Shown: positions 11,161-22,907, counted from the first letter of the stretch. The stretch: DNA of 59,032 nucleotides from Microcaldota archaeon (GCA_014727975.1 WJMK01000039.1:93237-152268), one strand, 5' to 3'. Notes: generated from the sequence alone by a model not told the origin. Translations and numbers: made by a program.

Positions 11161-11180
11161 AGGAAATAAAAAATTAATTG
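11161..11180 (-). promoter_or_regulatory. TATA box of the gene at 11142
   Basis: AT-rich minus-strand stretch with TTTTTTATTT, centred about 26 bp before the ATG and inside the 3' end of the radical SAM gene. Confidence 0.45.
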
Positions 11181-12316
11181 AAGGAAGCAAGAGTTGTCTG
11201 ATGGAGTCCATTTATTCTTATGAAAGGTAGTGCTCTTCCTAAGACAACCCCGTGCTTCCTCAATGCAGCCATGGAGGTTATTTTCTCCCTGGCTTTTGCA
11301 AGTGATTTTGCAGTTTTGGGGCCGATTCCAGGGACCCGCAAAAGGTCCCTTTCCTCGGCACCGTTTATTTCCAGGGGCCGTTCAAAAGTAGTCCTGGCTA
11401 TGGCGACCTTGGGGTCCGTGTTGTGGAGGAACCCATTATCGGAAAAAGCAGGCTGCACCTCATCTCTTGAGTAGCTGTATATTCTGTAGAGCCAATCCAG
11501 CTGGTAGAGGCGGTTCTGCCTCCATATTGGGGCAGCAGAAGTCCTTTCCAGGTGAGTATCCATTACGGGCCTGAACGCCGAGTAGTACATTCGGTTTAAT
11601 TTCATGTGGTCATATTCGGACGCTGCAAGCGTGAATATGTCCAGGTCTGATTCCCCGTTTATCCCGACCATGAGCTGGGAAACATGGGAAACACGTGTGG
11701 GAGCACTCCCGGTTTCCCGGGAGTGTTTAAAGCGCGATTGGGTGCTGCGTATCCAGGCCTGCCTCTTGAGTATGTCGTTCTTGAAATCCTTGTTGGAGGC
11801 AATTTCAGACAGGCGGGAAGGGGAAACTGTTTCCAGGTTTATGGAGACGCGGTCAGCATATTGGATTGCACGCTCCACCTGGTCCCTGGTGGAGCCAGGG
11901 AGGATTTTCAGGTGCATGTATCCTCTGTAGCGCATCTTTGCACGGAGGAGGCGGGCGGATTCCAGTATGGATTCCATTGAGGAGATTGGGTCTTCTATGG
12001 AGGAGGAGAGGAAGAGGCCCTGCACCATTCTTTTCTTATAGAGCGCCATGAAGGTGGAGGCGAGCTCAATTGGAGTATACTTCCATGCTGCCTTGCGCTT
12101 TGAGCAGTTTGCATTTACGCAGTACCTGCAGTCCATCTTGCAGTTGTTGGTCATAAGGGTCTTGAAAAGGGTGCACGAACCCCTGGGGGTTTTGGCTTCG
12201 TATATATGGAGGGTGTCCTTTGCCTCTCCCAGGGGGATGTGCTTGAGCTGCTCCTCCTGTTCCATGTCGTAGGAAGCAAGTTCGGAAAGCGCCCTTACCT
12301 TTTCGGCCGATACCAT
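11174..12316 (-). CDS. Radical SAM protein, putative DNA modification/repair family
   Basis: 380 residues. The CKMDCRYC motif binds the radical SAM [4Fe-4S] cluster. It lies in the context LMTNNCKMDC...CVNANC, with GLFLSSSIEDP after it, as in the family described as putative DNA modification/repair radical SAM protein (often linked to UdgX-type glycosylases). A helix-hairpin-helix segment near the C-terminus (LLRVPGIGPKTAKSLAKA) suggests nucleic-acid binding. No UdgX gene is visible in the window. The ATG at 12316 matches a TATA box at 12335-12347 (leaderless); an upstream ATG at 12349 is less likely. Confidence 0.82.
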   Translation of the reverse strand: MVSAEKVRALSELASYDMEQEEQLKHIPLGEAKDTLHIYEAKTPRGSCTLFKTLMTNNCKMDCRYCVNANCSKRKAAWKYTPIELASTFMALYKKRMVQGLFLSSSIEDPISSMESILESARLLRAKMRYRGYMHLKILPGSTRDQVERAIQYADRVSINLETVSPSRLSEIASNKDFKNDILKRQAWIRSTQSRFKHSRETGSAPTRVSHVSQLMVGINGESDLDIFTLAASEYDHMKLNRMYYSAFRPVMDTHLERTSAAPIWRQNRLYQLDWLYRIYSYSRDEVQPAFSDNGFLHNTDPKVAIARTTFERPLEINGAEERDLLRVPGIGPKTAKSLAKAREKITSMAALRKHGVVLGRALPFIRINGLHQTTLASFN

Positions 12317-12347: not shown

Positions 12348-12384
12348 AAAGGATGCAGGGGGTTTCCACTGTTTCCGCTAAAGC

Positions 12385-14255: not shown

Positions 14256-15545
14256 ATGGCTCCGACCAGGCCATTAGCCCATGCTACGAGGGAAAGCAGG
14301 GGCGTGACGCCAATCCCCGGAACACCCATGCAGCATGCGCCACCGCAAAATGTGGACAGGGGAAAATGCTTTTCTTCTCATAAAAACCTGCTTGAAAGCA
14401 GTGTTGCTGCAAGAAAGAGATCTGAACTCAGCAACCTCACTGTCGTGAATACAAGGAATGGCGGGAGCGAGCTCCCTTCCGGCCCTGATGAGGACTCCAG
14501 GAGGATTGCGCTCCCTACCTTTGATGAGGCAATCGTAAATATAGAAACAGGAAAGGATGGCGAGGCAATCTGGGCAATCCGGGAAGCGATGCCCAGGATA
14601 CTGGAATTCCTGAATAAAAAAGATTTATGGGATGTGGTTGATGCCCTTTCTGTCGGGGCCCTTGATGAGAAGGGCAAGAAAAGTCCGGAGATACGCGCTG
14701 CCTGCCTTGACTTGATGGTTCTTGTGCACAAGGAGATTTTGAAGAAATCCCTTAAACAGGAAAAGGCAACCTGGAAAAAAATTAAGGGCTCTGCAGAAGA
14801 GGATGGGGGTGCGCAGGAAGGGCTTCCTCTCCTGGACCCAAGGGCTGTCCATGAAGCGGTCGAAGACCGGGTAACGGACTATTCAATGGGGGTTGACAAG
14901 GACTTCCTGGAAATTGAGGAAAGGATGGCCATTACAATACTGAGCCTTATGGAAAGCAGCGAACCCTGGATAAGGGACTCCGCTGAGAAGGCAAGCTGCG
15001 AGATTGACTCACCTATACTTATACGGGGGCTTTCCGGGAAGCTGGATAGTGGCGATTCTGCGAAGGACGTATGCAGTGCACTGGACAATGCAGGGGATTC
15101 TGGGGAGGTTTTTGCCGCACTGGAATTGCTGGAGGCAAAAAGGGACAAGCTTAGCCACAGGAAGCTCTGGAAAGCCATGGATGCACTCTGCAACCTGGCA
15201 GAGAGGAGAGATATGGAAGATGAGGGGCGCGCTGCTGCATTCAGGGCGATGGTTCCGCTTTATGGAGTTATCTCAAGGTTTGGGAGCAACGGGAGAAAAG
15301 GGGGAAAAACTGAGGAGAAAATGGCTGCTGTGCTGACCAAGGCAGCATTGGGGAGCGATATGGAGGATTGGATTTCTGAAGCTGCAATGGATGCAGTTGA
15401 AGGGATAGATTGTGAAATTCTGGACAGGTTTTTCCTGAGCGGGCAGATTGAGGAGAAGGGAGAGGGGATTGACGATACGCTGGAGAGGAAAACCCTTGAT
15501 GTGGAGCTTGCAAAAATTATTGAAACGCTTGATGGCTCTGCTTAA
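14256..15545 (+). CDS. HEAT-like helical protein with two LW-type modules
   Basis: 429 residues. Two copies of the module seen in the preceding gene are visible, near residues 105-165 (LNKKDLWDVVDALS...R.ACLDLMVLVHKEI) and 295-345 (LSHRKLWKAMDALCNLA...AAFRAMVPLYGVI). Between them are further paired helices in HEAT style. No membrane segments. The ATG at 14256 is chosen from the TATA spacing. The TAA stop interleaves with that of herA on the other strand (TTAA, 15542-15545). Function unknown; a protein-interaction role is likely from the fold. Confidence 0.6.
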   Translation: MAPTRPLAHATRESRGVTPIPGTPMQHAPPQNVDRGKCFSSHKNLLESSVAARKRSELSNLTVVNTRNGGSELPSGPDEDSRRIALPTFDEAIVNIETGKDGEAIWAIREAMPRILEFLNKKDLWDVVDALSVGALDEKGKKSPEIRAACLDLMVLVHKEILKKSLKQEKATWKKIKGSAEEDGGAQEGLPLLDPRAVHEAVEDRVTDYSMGVDKDFLEIEERMAITILSLMESSEPWIRDSAEKASCEIDSPILIRGLSGKLDSGDSAKDVCSALDNAGDSGEVFAALELLEAKRDKLSHRKLWKAMDALCNLAERRDMEDEGRAAAFRAMVPLYGVISRFGSNGRKGGKTEEKMAAVLTKAALGSDMEDWISEAAMDAVEGIDCEILDRFFLSGQIEEKGEGIDDTLERKTLDVELAKIIETLDGSA

Positions 15546-17077
15546 AGGAATGCCTCTAATTCTTCGTCCTGCTCTTCATCTGATTTCTTTGCTTCTGATT
15601 CGTATGCGATTGCCTGCTCGTGCAATGGCCTTCCTTTTTCGATTTTCCTTGATTTGCGGTCCCTTATTTCCACGAAGATTGGGTACCTTACTGCTTCACC
15701 TACAATTATGCCCTCCCCTACTTTGAGGGAAGTTATGGATCGAGCCATCCTTGAGTCGATTCCCTCTGCGGATTCCTCTATGTGCTTGAGGTCGTTTGGA
15801 TTGGTTACCCTGAGGAGGATGTGGGTGTTGCATTGCGAAAGGGTTGTGGTGGAAAGGTTTACCGGGCGCTGGGAGACCACACCCAGGGCGAGGCCGAATT
15901 TCCTTCCTTCCCTTGCGATTTTCTCTATTATGGATTTTGAGGGGTTGTGTGCTGCCTTTGCCTTTTCCGGGGCAAAGTTGTGTGCCTCTTCAACCAGGAA
16001 AAATGTTGGGGGGATTTCGTTTTTTGCGCGGAGGCGGAAGAGCCTGTCCGCAATGTAGGAAACAATTACTTTCTTTTTGCGCATGTCATCCAGGTCCGAA
16101 AGGTCCAGGACAAGCATTTCCCCTGGGAGCACCTGCTGCCTCAGCTTGGGGTTTTCCTTGGACTGGGTGATTAGGTTTATGGAGCGGAGCTCATAGAGCG
16201 GGCGCATCAGCGCATCCTTTATGTTTTTGCTTATGCTGCTGGTTTCAACCCTCTTTATCAGGTCATTTACTGAGAAGAGCTGGCGCTCGTTTTTTTCCTG
16301 GGTGCGCATTTCCCTCAGGAGCTTGTTGAGTTCGTTCTGCCCTGCGGGAGGGACCGAGAACCAGGAGGAAAGCATCCTTGAGTTGAGCCTGCGGAACGGG
16401 ATTGTGATGTCTTTTCCATTTATTACGCGGATTTTTCTTCCGTATGTGGGGTCTTGCTTGAATCCGGAATACTCTCCGTGTATATCTATTATTACTGTGG
16501 CTACGCGGCCGTGCTCTTTTGGGCGGTCAAGCAATTCCTCGAGCATCACTGAGGCGAGGTGGCTCTTGCCGGCTCCGGACATTGCAAGGATTGCAAGGTG
16601 CTTCTGGAAGAGCCGTGTCATATCGATTTTTGCTTCCACTTCGTGGTTCTGGAGCTTCCCGAGCATCAGCCCATTGGGCACGAAGCCTACGAAATCCTTC
16701 AGGAGGGTTTCGTCCGCTTCTATTACTTTTGTTCCGGGGGAAGGGGGAAGCGAAACCCTTGATTGGAAGTAGTGCTCGCCCCTTTTTTCCATTCTTCCAA
16801 GGACGCGCACTTCCGCGATTGCGTATTCCCAGCTCTTTATTGGGAAATGGGTTGAGATGGGGTTTTCCCTTTCGTATTCCGCTACTGATTCCGCTCTTTC
16901 GAAATAGCGGTTTGCGCGGGTGATTTCAGAAACGTATCCGAAGACTATTCCCTCTTCGGAAGTGGTCTGGATAAACTGGCCTTTTTTCACTGGGGAGCCT
17001 TCATCCAGCACGAACGCGTATTTGAGCGTGGTGGGGGAATCATCGGTTGAGATTACTGTGCCTAGGGGCTTTTGCAT
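15542..17077 (-). CDS. herA: HerA-type hexameric ATPase/helicase
   Basis: 511 residues. An N-terminal HAS-barrel-like beta domain (about 1-120) precedes the FtsK/HerA ATPase core with Walker A AMSGAGKSHL (about 165-175), Walker B VIIDIHGEY, and a second acidic motif FFLVEEAHNFAP followed by the Q/R-rich VSQRP segment. HerA acts with the nuclease NurA (here at 21796) and Mre11-Rad50 in resection of DNA double-strand ends. The ATG at 17077 fits a leaderless TATA promoter, and the same start context is conserved upstream of nurA. Mre11 and Rad50 are not in the window. Confidence 0.92.
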   Translation of the reverse strand: MQKPLGTVISTDDSPTTLKYAFVLDEGSPVKKGQFIQTTSEEGIVFGYVSEITRANRYFERAESVAEYERENPISTHFPIKSWEYAIAEVRVLGRMEKRGEHYFQSRVSLPPSPGTKVIEADETLLKDFVGFVPNGLMLGKLQNHEVEAKIDMTRLFQKHLAILAMSGAGKSHLASVMLEELLDRPKEHGRVATVIIDIHGEYSGFKQDPTYGRKIRVINGKDITIPFRRLNSRMLSSWFSVPPAGQNELNKLLREMRTQEKNERQLFSVNDLIKRVETSSISKNIKDALMRPLYELRSINLITQSKENPKLRQQVLPGEMLVLDLSDLDDMRKKKVIVSYIADRLFRLRAKNEIPPTFFLVEEAHNFAPEKAKAAHNPSKSIIEKIAREGRKFGLALGVVSQRPVNLSTTTLSQCNTHILLRVTNPNDLKHIEESAEGIDSRMARSITSLKVGEGIIVGEAVRYPIFVEIRDRKSRKIEKGRPLHEQAIAYESEAKKSDEEQDEELEAFL

Positions 17078-17097
17078 AAGTATAGAGTTAATTAGAG

Positions 17098-17113
17098 GCA
17101 TTTATAAATAAAT
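17098..17113 (-). promoter_or_regulatory. TATA box of herA
   Basis: Minus-strand AATTTATTTATAAATG, centred about 27 bp before the ATG. It aligns without gaps with the nurA promoter. Confidence 0.6.
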
Positions 17114-17223
17114 TGAGGGTGGCTTTCCGGTGTGCAGGCGACCGGAGGGCGGCCATTTCTGTGCGCCGGGAAGGCATTGGCTTTCCACTGCACCTGCGCT
17201 AGCGATTCCGTGCAGCCACAGTT
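17111..17223 (-). repeat. herA copy of a dispersed upstream element, with a 58-bp insert
   Basis: Bases 17179-17223 match 22862-22907 upstream of nurA at about 39 of 46 positions, and 17111-17128 match 22852-22869 at 16 of 18. Between them this copy has 58 additional bases bounded by a direct repeat GGCTTTCC (17121-17128 and 17179-17186). The conserved core holds an inverted repeat CTGCAC...GTGCAG. The insert can itself fold (GGTGTGCAG with CTGTGCGCC). Confidence 0.75.
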
Positions 17224-17301
17224 TCTCATCATCTGGATATTGGGCAGGGGTGACCCAGAAGGTTTTAATGTTTTTTTTCCGAAGAGGGTTAAGGTGATCA
17301 A

Positions 17302-17622
17302 ATAGCAGTAAAGAAAAGAGGGCCGATATTTGTAATCCTTGCAGGTTTCATTACCTTTGGGATTTATTGGATTTATTGGTTCTATAAGACGACCAGAGAA
17401 TTGGGAGAAATCAACAAGAGCGACACAAACCCGCTCCTGTGGACAATCGGGCTTTTTGTCCCGCTTGTGAACCTTTGGGTACTCTGGAAGTATGCAGGGG
17501 AAAGCGAAAAAGTCCTTAACGGGAAGCACAGCCAGCTTGTTCTCTTCATTGCATGGATTGTGTTCTTCCCGATTGCGCAGTACCTGATCCAGAAAGGAAT
17601 CAACAAGCACGCTACAGTGTAG
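17302..17622 (+). CDS. Small membrane protein, DUF4234-like, with probable AUA start
   Basis: 106 residues with three hydrophobic segments: IFVILAGFITFGIYWIYWF, a central LWTIGLFVPLVNLWVLW and a C-terminal LVLFIAWIVFFPIAQYL. The pattern ITFGIYWIYWFYKTT typifies DUF4234 proteins. The frame is open back to 17293 but holds no ATG, GTG or TTG before 17401, where a TTG would delete the first membrane segment. An ATA at 17302 follows the Shine-Dalgarno-like AAGGTGAT by 3-4 bases and gives IAVKKRGP in place of the usual MAVKKR-like start. Function unknown. Confidence 0.65.
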   Translation: MAVKKRGPIFVILAGFITFGIYWIYWFYKTTRELGEINKSDTNPLLWTIGLFVPLVNLWVLWKYAGESEKVLNGKHSQLVLFIAWIVFFPIAQYLIQKGINKHATV

Positions 17623-17625
17623 CTG

Positions 17626-17650
17626 CTTTTTTCCTTTTCTCTTCTTTTTA
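17626..17650 (+). terminator. Oligo-T transcription terminator
   Basis: Pyrimidine-rich run with several T stretches directly after the stop of the DUF4234-like gene, as used for archaeal intrinsic termination. Confidence 0.55.
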
Positions 17651-17674
17651 CATCCCTAAAAATTCAGAAATAGT

Positions 17675-18178
17675 TCAGGCGACTCTTTGGAGCTTCTGGG
17701 TCTCCCTGGGGTTTCCCTGCTTAGGCTTTTCCGGCCTGATGGGCTGCTTCCTGAACCTTGCTGAAAGATCCCGGAGCTTTACGCGCTCCCTGAAGCTGCA
17801 AAGCGCATAAATTGAACGTATTGCTTTTGCTATTTTCTTTGCATGCTTCGGCTTTGCATCTGCCTCCTCCTTTGCAAGAAGAGGGAATACTTTTTCCGCG
17901 TGGTCCTTCACAAGAACGGTGAGCGCAAGGTCTGCAGTAACCGAAACGTGCTCATCCTTGTCAGAAAGTGCGGAGGCCACTGCCTTCACTGCCTTTGGGG
18001 ATATGTGCGAGGGGTTGGAAATAAGCACATCCATGAGGTCGAAAAGCGCATACTCGCGAACCTTGTAATCTATCCCATTGGAAACCGCATGCGCGTGTTT
18101 TTCAACAAGCGCGCTAAGCTCCGCTGGGGATTTTTGTATGCAAACCTCTGGCGGAAGTGAGTTAGCAGTGCCTCCCAT
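17675..18178 (-). CDS. HEAT-like repeat protein
   Basis: 167 residues. Two to three HEAT-like helix pairs are visible (REYALFDLMDVLISN; KAVKAVASALSDKDEHVSV; ALTVLVKDHAEKVFPLLAKE), followed by a basic tail (KPKQGNPRETQ). The frame extends to 18265, but the TATA box at 18204-18212 favours the leaderless ATG at 18178. Divergent from the cyclase-like gene. Function unknown. Confidence 0.6.
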   Translation of the reverse strand: MGGTANSLPPEVCIQKSPAELSALVEKHAHAVSNGIDYKVREYALFDLMDVLISNPSHISPKAVKAVASALSDKDEHVSVTADLALTVLVKDHAEKVFPLLAKEEADAKPKHAKKIAKAIRSIYALCSFRERVKLRDLSARFRKQPIRPEKPKQGNPRETQKLQRVA

Positions 18179-18181
18179 AAA

Positions 18182-18193
18182 GGTATATATACC
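18182..18193. promoter_or_regulatory. Perfect palindrome at the transcription start
   Basis: GGTATATATACC, a perfect 12-base palindrome between the minus-strand TATA box (18204-18212) and the ATG at 18178. It could be an operator for a dimeric regulator or simply an AT-rich start region. Confidence 0.4.
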
Positions 18194-18203
18194 CATAGAA
18201 AGT

Positions 18204-18212
18204 CTTATAAAT
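18204..18212 (-). promoter_or_regulatory. TATA box of the gene at 18178
   Basis: Minus-strand ATTTATAAG, centred about 30 bp before the ATG. Confidence 0.55.
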
Positions 18213-18283
18213 CCACATTTTTGGGACAACTCTTTCTTGCACCTGTAAAAGCATTGTTCCCACAAAATTCCCCAAAAAGAAAC

Positions 18284-18293
18284 CTTTAAATAG
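18284..18293 (+). promoter_or_regulatory. TATA box of the cyclase-like gene
   Basis: CTTTAAATAG, centred about 28 bp before the ATG at 18317. Confidence 0.6.
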
Positions 18294-18316
18294 ATTTAAC
18301 TACCCAAAAATACCCC

Positions 18317-20647
18317 ATGGCAGGCAGGCAGATTACAAAAAAGATGAAGGGGGGGAAGAAAAACCCGGCAGTGAAACCTCGCCGTGAAGAGGTCCTTGCT
18401 GAAGGCCCATGCGAAAACAGGATCAGCAAAATGTTCGATGGGCATCTTGAAAAAGTGCCGATTTCAAACAGCCCCTACCTTGTAAGGAGGGGGGCAGAGC
18501 AGACTCTTCTTGGCCTTGCAAGAAAATGGGACGTGAACCCAAGGAAGATGGATAAGTGGATAAGGGAATGCATTGCTTCTGAAAGGGAAGGCGTTGAGCT
18601 TGCGGGAATGAAGCCCCTTGAGTCCTGGCAGTATATGCTCACTGCATATTTCGCAGCGGGGCTGAGGAGCACAAAGCCCCATACAAACATCGCGGAATTC
18701 GGGGGTGCTTACGGAGAAGATACCTATGATGCAACTGCATCTTTTATTGACATGGAAGGCTTCAGCAGCGCAACAAAGAGCGCAAGCGGAAGGACAATCG
18801 GAATGCTGATGCACCTGCAGGACATCATGTTCAGGCTTGCAGGAATGCTCACCGGCACAAACATAGACAACTTTACAGGGGACGGAAGGAACACAGTAAC
18901 AATCAAGAGCAGCGTATTCAAAGAAATGGTCGATTCGGTTATGTATGGGCTCATGACGCTTTCCCTTGTTGAGGAATTCAACAAAGTAAATGACAAAACC
19001 CGCGAACTGGGCATGCTGGAGGGCAAAGAGCTAAGGATAAGAATGGGTGCAAACCATGGAGAAGTCTCTATCCGGGAAACAAGCGGAAGGCACACCACTT
19101 TCTCCGGCTCAACCAACCTTGCAGCAAGGCTGATGGGGCACGGAGAATCAAAAAAGCTGGTGATTTCCCAGGAAATGGCAAAGTCAGTATACCGGCATTT
19201 CAGGCTTACAAGGCGTGTGCTTGGGCAGACAGTGATGGAGGAAATTGAAAAGTTCAAGAAAAATGCAGGCATGATGAGGGAAGAATATGATTCCCTTCCG
19301 GAGGACGTTTCGCAGAAAGAGAGGAAAGCGCTGCTGCTCAGCCTGTTCAGCGAAACCTACAAAATCCAGTTGCTTTCAGACAGGCTTGATGAAGTATTCG
19401 GAAGCTGCAAGAGAAAAGAAAATGTAAAATGGATAAGCATGAATGATGAGGTTGAGGATATCCTTAAGGACGGGGAAGTGCTTGGAGAACATGTACTCGG
19501 GCGCAATGACATAGACGTTATGAAAAGGGAGCATAGGGAAGAAACAAACAGGAACCCGAATTATGCGCGTTCGCTTAAGCCGTTCAAGGGATTTGAGGAG
19601 GTTAGCGCATACTACACAGTTGATGGGATGCGTGAGGCAAGGGACAACCCATACATGTTCCCGGAAGGCTCAGGAATAAGGGAAAAATACCTGGGAAAGT
19701 CCGGGGATTCTGCAGAAAGCATGGAATCATATATCTCCAGGGCAGCAAAAGGCCATGGGCTGCGCGTAAGCACAATACCAAACCTGTTTTTCCCTTACTC
19801 AGTGCATGAGATTGACCTGCTGGACGGGGAAGTTGGCTCCTCCATGAACCGCACGGTAATGTCAAGCTGCGCATTCAGGGAGCTTGTGGAAAAGATTGCT
19901 GCTGCGGAGCCTGAAGACATTGAAGGCAGCATACTGGAAGAGCTTGGAACAGAGATGCGGGGCCTCGGGGTAATTGGAGATGCAGGAGGGATAAACCAGG
20001 AAAAGATGGAAGAAGTTGAAAAAGAATACATACTGCTTCCTTCGCTTACCCTGGAAATAGGCAAATGCAGGATTGCTGACAAGATGTTCGGGGAGCCCAG
20101 GAAGCCGGGGGACGAAAGAGCTGCAAAAAGGGTGGCAAGGACACATATGGTCCTTACGAAAAACCCATCGCTTATGGGAAACCTCCTGGATGATTCCCAG
20201 ATGGCATACCTGAACCAGATTCCAAAGATAAGTGCGGAGATGCTGCGCGAGCACAATGAAAGGTATGGCCAGGGAGGAGGGAATTACTTTGAAGAATTCA
20301 GCGATGCCAGCATAAGGGTCGTGGAAGCATGCGGAAGCAAAAACAAATGGAGGGAAAAGCTCGCTGAACTCGAAGGCGAAGGAATGGAAAACCCTGCACT
20401 TGTATTGATGAGCAGCCAGGTAATCGATGGCTCGCACCAGCTGGTGAAAGGGATAATGGGCATGCCCTGGAGCCAGACCTTTGAGCCCGTGGACACTGTG
20501 CTAGACTCCGCGCACAAGAGGTACGAAGTGGACAGGTACGAGACGATGCATAGGGAAGTCTTCGTGGTGTTGAGGGGACTGCTCTCAAGCAAGGTATCTT
20601 ACAGGGTCCATGTGGACACTGAGCTTTTCCCTGAAGAGCATTCATGA
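18317..20647 (+). CDS. Class III nucleotidyl cyclase-like protein, 776 residues
   Basis: Residues about 138-290 match the class III adenylyl/guanylyl cyclase core. FIDMEGFSSAT carries the first metal-binding aspartate (D145). NFTGDGRNTV carries the second (D189). MGANHGEVSI is the strand before the dimer arm, and SGSTNLAARL carries the asparagine and arginine (N267, R271) that stabilise the transition state; the usual Asp before this Asn appears replaced or shifted. The N-terminal 130 residues and C-terminal 480 residues are soluble and not clearly assigned. In the tail, LEIGKCRIADKMF (579-591), H610 and HNERYGQGGGNYF (646-658) faintly resemble an HD-GYP phosphodiesterase with lost metal ligands. 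A role making a cyclic nucleotide is inference. Confidence 0.6.
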   Translation: MAGRQITKKMKGGKKNPAVKPRREEVLAEGPCENRISKMFDGHLEKVPISNSPYLVRRGAEQTLLGLARKWDVNPRKMDKWIRECIASEREGVELAGMKPLESWQYMLTAYFAAGLRSTKPHTNIAEFGGAYGEDTYDATASFIDMEGFSSATKSASGRTIGMLMHLQDIMFRLAGMLTGTNIDNFTGDGRNTVTIKSSVFKEMVDSVMYGLMTLSLVEEFNKVNDKTRELGMLEGKELRIRMGANHGEVSIRETSGRHTTFSGSTNLAARLMGHGESKKLVISQEMAKSVYRHFRLTRRVLGQTVMEEIEKFKKNAGMMREEYDSLPEDVSQKERKALLLSLFSETYKIQLLSDRLDEVFGSCKRKENVKWISMNDEVEDILKDGEVLGEHVLGRNDIDVMKREHREETNRNPNYARSLKPFKGFEEVSAYYTVDGMREARDNPYMFPEGSGIREKYLGKSGDSAESMESYISRAAKGHGLRVSTIPNLFFPYSVHEIDLLDGEVGSSMNRTVMSSCAFRELVEKIAAAEPEDIEGSILEELGTEMRGLGVIGDAGGINQEKMEEVEKEYILLPSLTLEIGKCRIADKMFGEPRKPGDERAAKRVARTHMVLTKNPSLMGNLLDDSQMAYLNQIPKISAEMLREHNERYGQGGGNYFEEFSDASIRVVEACGSKNKWREKLAELEGEGMENPALVLMSSQVIDGSHQLVKGIMGMPWSQTFEPVDTVLDSAHKRYEVDRYETMHREVFVVLRGLLSSKVSYRVHVDTELFPEEHS

Positions 20648-20684
20648 ATAGGGAAGGGTGCAAATATGGGTCACCTTAACCCAC

Positions 20685-20694
20685 CTTTTTAAAC
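20685..20694 (+). promoter_or_regulatory. TATA box of the gene at 20721
   Basis: CTTTTTAAAC, centred about 31 bp before the ATG. Just upstream, TGGGT and ACCCA (20667-20683) form a small inverted repeat. Confidence 0.5.
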
Positions 20695-20720
20695 TATTGT
20701 AGGCCAAATGATATAATTGT

Positions 20721-21794
20721 ATGAGCGGGTCTGGTGTTTCTGGCAGGGAGAGGATGGCGCAGGTCATCCGGAGCGCTATAGCAGACCCGGAAGTACTTGA
20801 TTCTGTTTCTGAGCAGGACGCAATGCAGATAGCAGAAAAGGCTGTGCACCTGCTTCATCCTTCAGAAGTGCGCTCATTTATATTCCAGTGCTTCAGGCTG
20901 GGAAAGGTCGAAAACGGGCTTGCGATGCTTGATGCAACGATAGAGTATTCCTCAAAGATGAGGAGGCATGGAGACTGGAAAATGGGGAGTGGGGCGCTTG
21001 TGGCGGCAGTAAGCGCAATTGCAGCCATTTCAACAAGCAACAGGTCCGCAAGGGAGAAGCTTTTCAGGGTGCTGGAATACGGGGAGCCGGATGTGGTGGC
21101 TACTGTAGTGAAAAGCCTTGGGAGGAGCAATGAGATTAGGAGCTTCAGGAAAGTCTGTGATTTAATCCTAAAGGACGAATTCAAGGTGCAGATGAGCGCC
21201 GTGAGGTATGCAGAAGATTGCGCAATGAAGGCTGCATTCCTCAAGAGGGATGAGGATTATGCAATGGAGCCAACTGCGGAAGAATTCATGAGGAATGCTT
21301 TGGTCTCGCTTGAAAGGATACATGAAAAGCTGTTGGAACGCGGTGGCGGGCATATCCAAAGAAGGCTTGCAATACTCGTGGCAATGAGCTACAATGAGAT
21401 TCTCGATACCATAGACTGGAAGCGCAGGAACGAAGAAGATGTAAACGAAGTCATCTACTACAATCTTGAAGAGCACCTTCATAAGAGGCTTGCCCCGGAA
21501 GCCCTTCCGCTGCTGTTCAAGATGCTGCAGAGGGCAGGCCTGGATGAGAGCGTGAAAAAATGCGCACTCAATACCATTGGCAGGATAGGGAACAACGAGA
21601 AATGCCGGGGCAGGGTGCGCGCATGGGCAAGGGATTACATTGGCTTGGAAAAGTCCCCACGGCTTACCAAAATTGCAATGCAGATAAGAGAATCCTGCAT
21701 GCATGGGAAAAGGTTTTCCTCGATTCCTGCGCCTGTGCGGGCCCGGGGCAGGACCAGCATTATCCCAAAAGGCGTTGGGCCGATAAAAAGGTAA
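20721..21794 (+). CDS. HEAT-like repeat protein
   Basis: 357 residues, soluble and nearly all helical. Helix pairs typical of HEAT-like repeats are seen (AREKLFRVLEYGEPDVVATV, VKSLGRSNEIRSFRKV, ALPLLFKMLQRAGLDES). The C-terminal 30 residues are basic and Pro/Gly-rich. No catalytic motif. Its TATA box makes it an independent unit between the cyclase-like gene and the convergent nurA. Function unknown. Confidence 0.65.
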   Translation: MSGSGVSGRERMAQVIRSAIADPEVLDSVSEQDAMQIAEKAVHLLHPSEVRSFIFQCFRLGKVENGLAMLDATIEYSSKMRRHGDWKMGSGALVAAVSAIAAISTSNRSAREKLFRVLEYGEPDVVATVVKSLGRSNEIRSFRKVCDLILKDEFKVQMSAVRYAEDCAMKAAFLKRDEDYAMEPTAEEFMRNALVSLERIHEKLLERGGGHIQRRLAILVAMSYNEILDTIDWKRRNEEDVNEVIYYNLEEHLHKRLAPEALPLLFKMLQRAGLDESVKKCALNTIGRIGNNEKCRGRVRAWARDYIGLEKSPRLTKIAMQIRESCMHGKRFSSIPAPVRARGRTSIIPKGVGPIKR

Positions 21795-21795
21795 A

Positions 21796-22818
21796 TCACC
21801 TGAATGGCCGGTTGTTTCTCCTTAAGTCCAGAAGAGTTGGGCCTGCGAACAGGCTGAGGGATTTTTTTGCGCGCTCCAGTTCGTTTGGGTCCATCATTGC
21901 CCTTAGGTCTGCATCAATTAGGATTGCTGGGTAGGCGTAGGAGCGGTTTATGCTTGAGATCGTTGAGATGAAGTCTGCGGTTTCCTGGAATGGCTTCTGG
22001 CCGTTTATGAATTCGATTCGCATTGGGCGGTCGGCTTCCACTGGCTTCAGGTAGAAAGCGCAGAGCTTCTCTCCCCACTTCCCCAATTCTCTAAGAACAT
22101 GGTGCTTTTGCGGGGACTCGGAATACCTGAATGCGAAAGTTCTTTCTCCCTCTTTGAGCAGGTGGTGGAGGAATACTGTGTCTGAGGCGCGCTCGGAAAC
22201 ATATGGATGGAGCATCTCTACAAACCTCCTGGACCTTGAGTCCTTTATTACCCCTAATAGTATAATGTTGTTTTCTGTGCAAAAGGTGTAGAGTTCCTTG
22301 TAGGTGTTTAGGAGGGCCATGTATTTGGGGAATAGTTTGGATTCTTCTGCCGGGCGGTCGGACATCAATGGGCAGATTGAGCCATCCAGGAGCAAGTGTC
22401 CTGGTTTTTCTTTTTTTGCGGTTTCCAAAGCATTCTGGGTTTCCAGCTGGAGGCGGAATAATGAATTGTGCCAGTTTACTTCCCTTTCATCCAATCCTGT
22501 TTCCACATCGTAGGAGGGGTGGGGGAAGGCTCTTGGGTGGTATGTGTGCGTGTTCACTGAGCCGTTTTCATAGTTGAAGGTGGAGGAGACTGCTTTCGCG
22601 ATCAGGAGGTCGGCGCCGTGCATTTCGTATGAAAGGATTCCGCCGTCCACTGCAGAGATTTTCCCGTTTACTTCTGTTTTGTTTATGGGAAAGGTAAAGC
22701 TGGGCTCAAGCGCATCCTTGGGAATTGTGGCTTCTGCGCGCACCTTTTGTGCAGACCTGGAGCGGGCGGATTCAATTTCCTGGATGTGCGCTGCGGCTTT
22801 CTTCAGCTGTTCAAGCAT
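21796..22818 (-). CDS. nurA: NurA 5'-3' nuclease
   Basis: 340 residues with the NurA-domain acidic motifs: ISAVDGG (D58), HLLLDGS (D145), the basic GVIKDSRS segment near 190, and YPAILIDAD near 297-304. NurA is a manganese-dependent nuclease that binds the HerA hexamer and resects DNA ends. In many archaea it sits in one operon with herA, mre11 and rad50. Here it is 4.7 kb from herA on the same strand but has a homologous promoter and upstream element. The ATG at 22818 agrees with the TATA box at 22840-22852. Confidence 0.9.
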   Translation of the reverse strand: MLEQLKKAAAHIQEIESARSRSAQKVRAEATIPKDALEPSFTFPINKTEVNGKISAVDGGILSYEMHGADLLIAKAVSSTFNYENGSVNTHTYHPRAFPHPSYDVETGLDEREVNWHNSLFRLQLETQNALETAKKEKPGHLLLDGSICPLMSDRPAEESKLFPKYMALLNTYKELYTFCTENNIILLGVIKDSRSRRFVEMLHPYVSERASDTVFLHHLLKEGERTFAFRYSESPQKHHVLRELGKWGEKLCAFYLKPVEADRPMRIEFINGQKPFQETADFISTISSINRSYAYPAILIDADLRAMMDPNELERAKKSLSLFAGPTLLDLRRNNRPFR

Positions 22819-22839
22819 ATGGATAGATTTGCATTAGGG

Positions 22840-22852
22840 AATTAATAAAGGA
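22840..22852 (-). promoter_or_regulatory. TATA box of nurA
   Basis: Minus-strand CCTTTATTAATTC, centred about 28 bp before the ATG. It aligns without gaps with the herA promoter (about 24 of 37 positions up to the start codon). Confidence 0.6.
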
Positions 22853-22907
22853 ATTGGGGGTGGGTTTCCACTGCACCCTGGATAGTGATTCCGTGCAGCC
22901 ACACTTT
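22852..22907 (-). repeat. nurA copy of the dispersed upstream element
   Basis: Matches the two flanks of the element upstream of herA (17111-17128 and 17179-17223) without the 58-bp insert. It contains the inverted repeat CTGCAC...GTGCAG. The rest of the 282-base gene-free region, up to the promoter of the gene at 23101, shows no recognisable feature. Confidence 0.75.

Follow-up and report, generated by a model that had tools for sequence, protein, structure and literature searches.

A short promoter-adjacent motif, CACYGGAAASCYACCCYC in the genus consensus, precedes the TATA box of herA, nurA and other repair genes by 6 nt in a genus of Micrarchaeota. Judged from sequence comparison, we consider it very probable (about 85%) that this motif is bound by a sequence-specific transcription regulator and defines a repair-centred regulon. 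The source genome is that of Microcaldota archaeon GCA_014727975.1 (1.07 Mb in 55 contigs, 88% complete), and the window, by which we mean the whole stretch of DNA analysed, is WJMK01000039.1:93237-152268 with a length of 59,032 nt. Pfam confirms the identities of HerA (DUF87/HAS-barrel) and NurA, and the two genes and their upstream regions comprise the following features:

15542..17077, minus strand: herA (HerA helicase), Pfam DUF87 E=4e-34, start codon by genus alignment
17101..17108, minus strand: predicted TATA box TTTATAAA of herA, leaderless-type, with the start codon ~25 nt downstream
17115..17132, minus strand: proximal regulatory site CACCGGAAAGCCACCCTC of herA, kept in 6/6 genus herA promoters, R1 E=5.8e-11 (training sequence)
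17179..17190, minus strand: putative degenerate second copy of the motif, CAGTGGAAAGCC, on the distal side of the herA site within the 46-base core
17179..17224, minus strand: 46-base core upstream of herA, confined to the source genome
21796..22818, minus strand: nurA (NurA nuclease), Pfam NurA E=6e-12, orthologues found
22842..22849, minus strand: predicted TATA box TTTATTAA of nurA
22856..22873, minus strand: regulatory site CAGTGGAAACCCACCCCC of nurA, kept in 5/5 recovered genus nurA promoters, R1 E=8.6e-10 (training sequence)
22862..22907, minus strand: 46-base core before nurA, which shares its downstream part with the nurA regulatory site

The run AATTG(A/G)GGGTGG(C/G)TTTCC, which a preliminary description of this DNA had placed next to the TATA boxes of herA and nurA, is found there at 17111-17128 and 22852-22869, adjoining TTTATAAA and TTTATTAA on the upstream side. 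The herA start needed to be corrected: in the genus alignment relatives begin at 17077, whereas the longer ORF would begin at 17101. Every herA (6) and nurA (5) gene recovered from the genus is preceded by the site (11/11), while the neighbouring intergenic DNA diverges. Genus promoters consist, practically without gaps, of a GGAA(A/T)NCC-type block, a 6-nt spacer of BRE size and an 8-nt TATA box. Positions -2 and -1 (C and A), which were not used in selection, are 95-98% conserved among 44 genus sites, and 14 of these have a second GGAA exactly 9 nt further upstream, while 3 have one at 8 nt. On the opposite strand the site reads GSTTTCC, preceded by G or R, and an Rfam search at the sites returned no known RNA.

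The preliminary description had centred on a 46-base core shared by the two upstream regions, and had proposed a duplicated control region that might bind an unnamed regulator. The near-identity of the core is real, with 39 of 46 positions identical and no gaps between 17179-17224 and 22862-22907; P(>=39/46) is 2.5e-17 per alignment, ~9e-8 matches (in round terms ~1e-7) are expected by chance over the whole window, and the exact core pattern has exactly two copies in the whole genome. As a common regulator site the promoter-proximal CACYGGAAASCYACCCYC is supported, whereas the core with its CTGCAC...GTGCAG is confined to the source genome: it is absent upstream of nurA in 29 relatives and upstream of herA within the genus, none was found in viral contigs, and the palindrome occurs just in these two core copies, relatives being without it. 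Nor is the control region as such duplicated; herA and nurA have the site in common because each orthologue retains its own copy across the genus, and only the distal core is duplication-like. Core and proximal motif overlap at nurA, and at herA the core lies ~46 bases further upstream, because herA has a degenerate distal motif copy together with an intact proximal one. In one relative (G001) herA has two tandem GGAAA boxes at the position matching the distal core of the source genome, and the core therefore looks like a diverged, lineage-specific duplication or expansion of tandem boxes.

A sequence-only model (R1), trained solely on the 11 herA and nurA promoters of the genus, was used to scan six genus genomes and yielded 29 matches at E<=1e-4, 44 at E<=1e-3 and 68 at E<=0.02, against 0, 0 and 2 for a control model that kept the TATA but had its motif block reversed. 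E-values of the model are rough, and it is therefore the reversed-motif control on which the result rests. Sites outside the training set mostly lie ~50-65 nt before start codons, and the regulon amounts to ~10-20 promoters per genome in the genus. Two R1 matches within coding sequence (G000:C34 and G003:C46:12219) look like chance. Among 84,980 genomes (257 Gb) the exact pattern CACCGGAAANCCACCCN{4,12}TTTWWWA was found in 11 contigs, all of them Micrarchaeota/Diapherotrites by name, with ~2 chance matches estimated from base composition, and the exact site-plus-TATA pattern gave no match in viral contigs. The fixed spacing between site and TATA could be taken to mean a clade-specific strong BRE/UP-like core promoter element that works without a dedicated regulator, but we regard this as very unlikely given so few promoters per genome, their concentration in repair, toxin-antitoxin and mobile genes, and the near absence of matches to the core-promoter control model.

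Target genes were defined as ORFs downstream of the sites, which were clustered and their representatives identified with Pfam and NCBIfam. The replication and repair targets are MCM, Mre11, Rad50, UvrA, UvrB, two UvrD-type helicases, XPD/rad3, a Hef-type helicase, the PolD small subunit, NreA and a radical-SAM/HhH gene, where Mre11, Rad50, Hef and NreA are named by best NCBIfam matches below the curated equivalog cut-offs. In total 12 replication/repair families are found among ~40 target gene families (P=4e-7 at an assumed 5% background). Other targets are toxin-antitoxin-type genes (HicB, RHH, MazE, HEPN, ParE-type), TnpB, two conserved small proteins without family and a micropeptide, and the archaeal GluRS gene (gltX) and an amino-acid permease also bear sites. 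Occurrence before mre11, rad50 or other repair genes had been put forward beforehand as the mark of a regulon, and many copies at unrelated sites or lack of conservation in relatives as marks against it; the proximal motif shows the former and neither of the latter. Both mre11 and uvrB have a site in G001, with uvrA closely behind uvrB, and in G002 uvrB and uvrA each have their own. Certain repair targets carry the site in only one or two of the six genomes, whose assemblies are incomplete; site turnover at repair targets is real. A 517-aa gene after herA in locus L102, taken as PolB at first, obtained no support from Pfam and was dropped.

The radical-SAM/HhH gene lies within the window and is, by sequence, likely a third regulon member there, with R1 sites present at its orthologues in G002, G004 and G005:

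11174..12316, minus strand: radical-SAM/HhH gene, putative DNA modification/repair, nearest NCBIfam TIGR03916 E=1.7e-75, below curated cut-off
12355..12378, minus strand: putative tandem site GCGGAAACAGTGGAAACCCCCTGC before the radical-SAM gene, weaker, not reached by R1, supported by orthologues

Seven TnpB-type genes carry sites in the genus, and TnpB genes with sites are found in family f5 too, as might be expected of a dispersed repeat or an insertion-sequence-borne promoter spread by TnpB elements. Such an origin is hardly credible: similarity is restricted to site and TATA, with no extended identity at many unrelated places, the 46-base core has just 2 copies, and orthologous promoters of herA, nurA, mcm, gltX and the 88-aa protein have retained the site through long divergence. 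As a separate observation, sites at two loci (L177 and L185; G004:C40:15333 and G004:C38:1232) are followed by non-coding sequence with a common TACCGGTRGGCRCYGRGAAGTAACGCCTG stretch and without Rfam match, which is perhaps an IS200/IS605-related RNA. A near-identical RHH gene with its site-bearing promoter is present at G000:C41:87-117 and G001:C53:3429-3459, in species whose NurA proteins are 73% identical, and reflects either recent transfer or contamination.

Beyond the genus, the strict 15-mer ACYGGAAANCYACCY was found over the order mainly in the source genus (0-10 per genome) and in genus g24 of another family (13 in G064, 5 in G062), with reversed controls of 0-1 across the order. In G064, of family f5, the 13 exact 15-mers stand against 0 control matches and precede herA, nurA, both small proteins of the source genus, TnpB and toxin-antitoxin-type genes. 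Most f1 genera outside the source genus gave little or no site match with strict models, and the motif has therefore been lost there or has drifted.

The most widely conserved regulon member is an 88-aa protein (MPVEDEVTHWWKDDKGE..., HWWKDDKGE...; loci L290-L319, in the source genome at G000:C9:30323-30586), which is single-copy in 34 of 83 genomes and 51-83% identical across families. In most of 30 loci across several families its promoter has, as judged by eye, either the site or a related box, the latter consisting of a YGG(A/C)A core and, between this and the TATA, a CCCT-like stretch. The second regulon protein without assigned family (~86-108 aa, weak DUF736 match) is common to families f1 and f5 (L154:694-1017, L158, L170, L176, L194, L269, L271), and PDB profile searches with both small-protein families gave nothing convincing. 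A micropeptide ORF of 9-10 codons, MEW(A/S)WEK(E/D)L(E/D), is present in exactly one copy in 5 of 6 genus genomes, with no control matches and none in the other genomes of the order searched, and all 5 copies (L320-L324: G000:C45:30507, G001:C50:16632, G003:C46:11399, G004:C44:3306, G005:C15:41160) have a site and TATA box upstream. Changes among the copies are synonymous and conservative, which argues for translation of this ORF.

Regarding function, the site CACYGGAAASCYACCCYC, often with the second GGAA 9 nt upstream and adjoining the 6-nt BRE and the TATA, would bind one putative regulator that jointly switches the target genes and that would contact or block TFB/TBP. The position of the site matches known archaeal upstream activator motifs, for example the Sulfolobus UV hexamer (PMC5817253), and repression is equally possible. 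The response would be SOS-like, with DNA damage and not the cell cycle as its signal, because repair, toxin-antitoxin and mobile genes occur together as targets. Sites at mcm, the PolD small subunit and gltX are what a cell-cycle or replication regulon of co-expressed S-phase genes would also show, but NER genes, Mre11/Rad50, Hef, NreA, toxin-antitoxin genes and TnpB do not belong to the typical S-phase set and the Orc genes lack the regulon site, so that we hold a cell-cycle regulon to be rather unlikely.

An Orc1/Cdc6 paralog with a transcription-factor role is a possible, though doubtful, candidate for the regulator, the site then having evolved from half of an origin recognition box (ORB). 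As in Sulfolobales there is more than one Orc1/Cdc6 paralog, namely two in all six genus genomes, above the family cut-off, and the site shares the CAGTGGAAAC core with the archaeal ORB consensus CTTCCAGTGGAAACGAAAGGGGT (PMC4153887). In Saccharolobus a damage network under Orc1-2 control brings about induction of herA-mre11-rad50-nurA (PMC10470591), and the UV-inducible promoters there have a motif just upstream of the BRE (PMC5817253). In most genus Orc1/Cdc6-A promoters (L201-L206) we observed the arrangement ACCGGAAGCATAG-TATA-ATTTCCRCTAAT, in which GGAA boxes face each other across the TATA; this suggests autoregulation of Orc1/Cdc6-A. All inspected Orc1/Cdc6 promoters, however, lack the regulon site and have only these related GGAA boxes, the full ORB differs from the site by its G-tract and TTCC arm, the promoter position and the direct 9-nt phasing of tandem GGAA boxes are not ORB-like, and the Sulfolobus hexamer ANTTTC is not matched.

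The 88-aa protein, if autoregulated through the site or related box in its own promoter, is another candidate, and it is missing from several lineages without sites. It has no recognisable DNA-binding domain and no Pfam, NCBIfam or convincing PDB match, it was not found in G003 (81% complete) although this genome has sites, and it could equally be a damage-response effector; we therefore think it improbable as the regulator.

Archaea are reported to be without LexA homologues, and a coordinated SOS response is apparently restricted to bacteria (PMC2246294). If the repair-centred regulon is damage-inducible, it would be a LexA-independent, SOS-like response of Micrarchaeota in which one regulator of a new kind controls NER, double-strand-break repair, helicase, replicative and toxin-antitoxin genes as well as TnpB and an SOS-type micropeptide of 9-10 residues, with mobile elements plugged into the same switch, and we give this wider reading even odds. 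It resembles the bacterial LexA/RecA system in having a common operator before uvrA, uvrB, uvrD, XPD/DinG-like, other repair, toxin-antitoxin and small-peptide genes. Unlike there, the operator lies upstream of the BRE/TATA and is not LexA-box-like, the consensus CACYGGAAASCYACCCYC lacking a palindrome of the CTG-N10-CAG type. With the Orc1-2 network of Sulfolobales, which is the sole archaeal damage network found in the open-access literature searched, it shares a non-palindromic motif directly upstream of the BRE (6 nt from the TATA in the training promoters, versus -44..-39 in Sulfolobales; PMC5817253) and the inclusion of herA, mre11, rad50 and nurA. The motifs themselves differ. The Sulfolobus one has been described for pili/DNA-exchange and tfb3 promoters; in Micrarchaeota, by contrast, the NER, Hef, MCM, Mre11-Rad50 and HerA/NurA genes bear the site themselves. 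No such regulon came up in the open-access literature searched for Micrarchaeota regulons and DNA repair, and the papers found there on Micrarchaeota promoters, transcription factors and motifs are by title on other subjects. With an operator defined and its regulon listed for DPANN archaea, the question of an archaeal SOS response can be put to the test: the site may serve to fish for the regulator, metatranscriptomes allow the targets to be examined, and the small proteins without family and the micropeptide are candidate new damage-response factors.

Three further genes near herA and nurA were noted in the window. Divergent from herA, a DUF4234 gene (17302-17622) has no ATG, GTG or TTG near its apparent ribosome-binding site GGTGATC, and reading starts at ATA. 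Between herA and nurA lies a gene for a protein with a match to the adenylate/guanylate cyclase catalytic domain (18317-20647), which is followed by a HEAT-repeat gene at 20721-21794.
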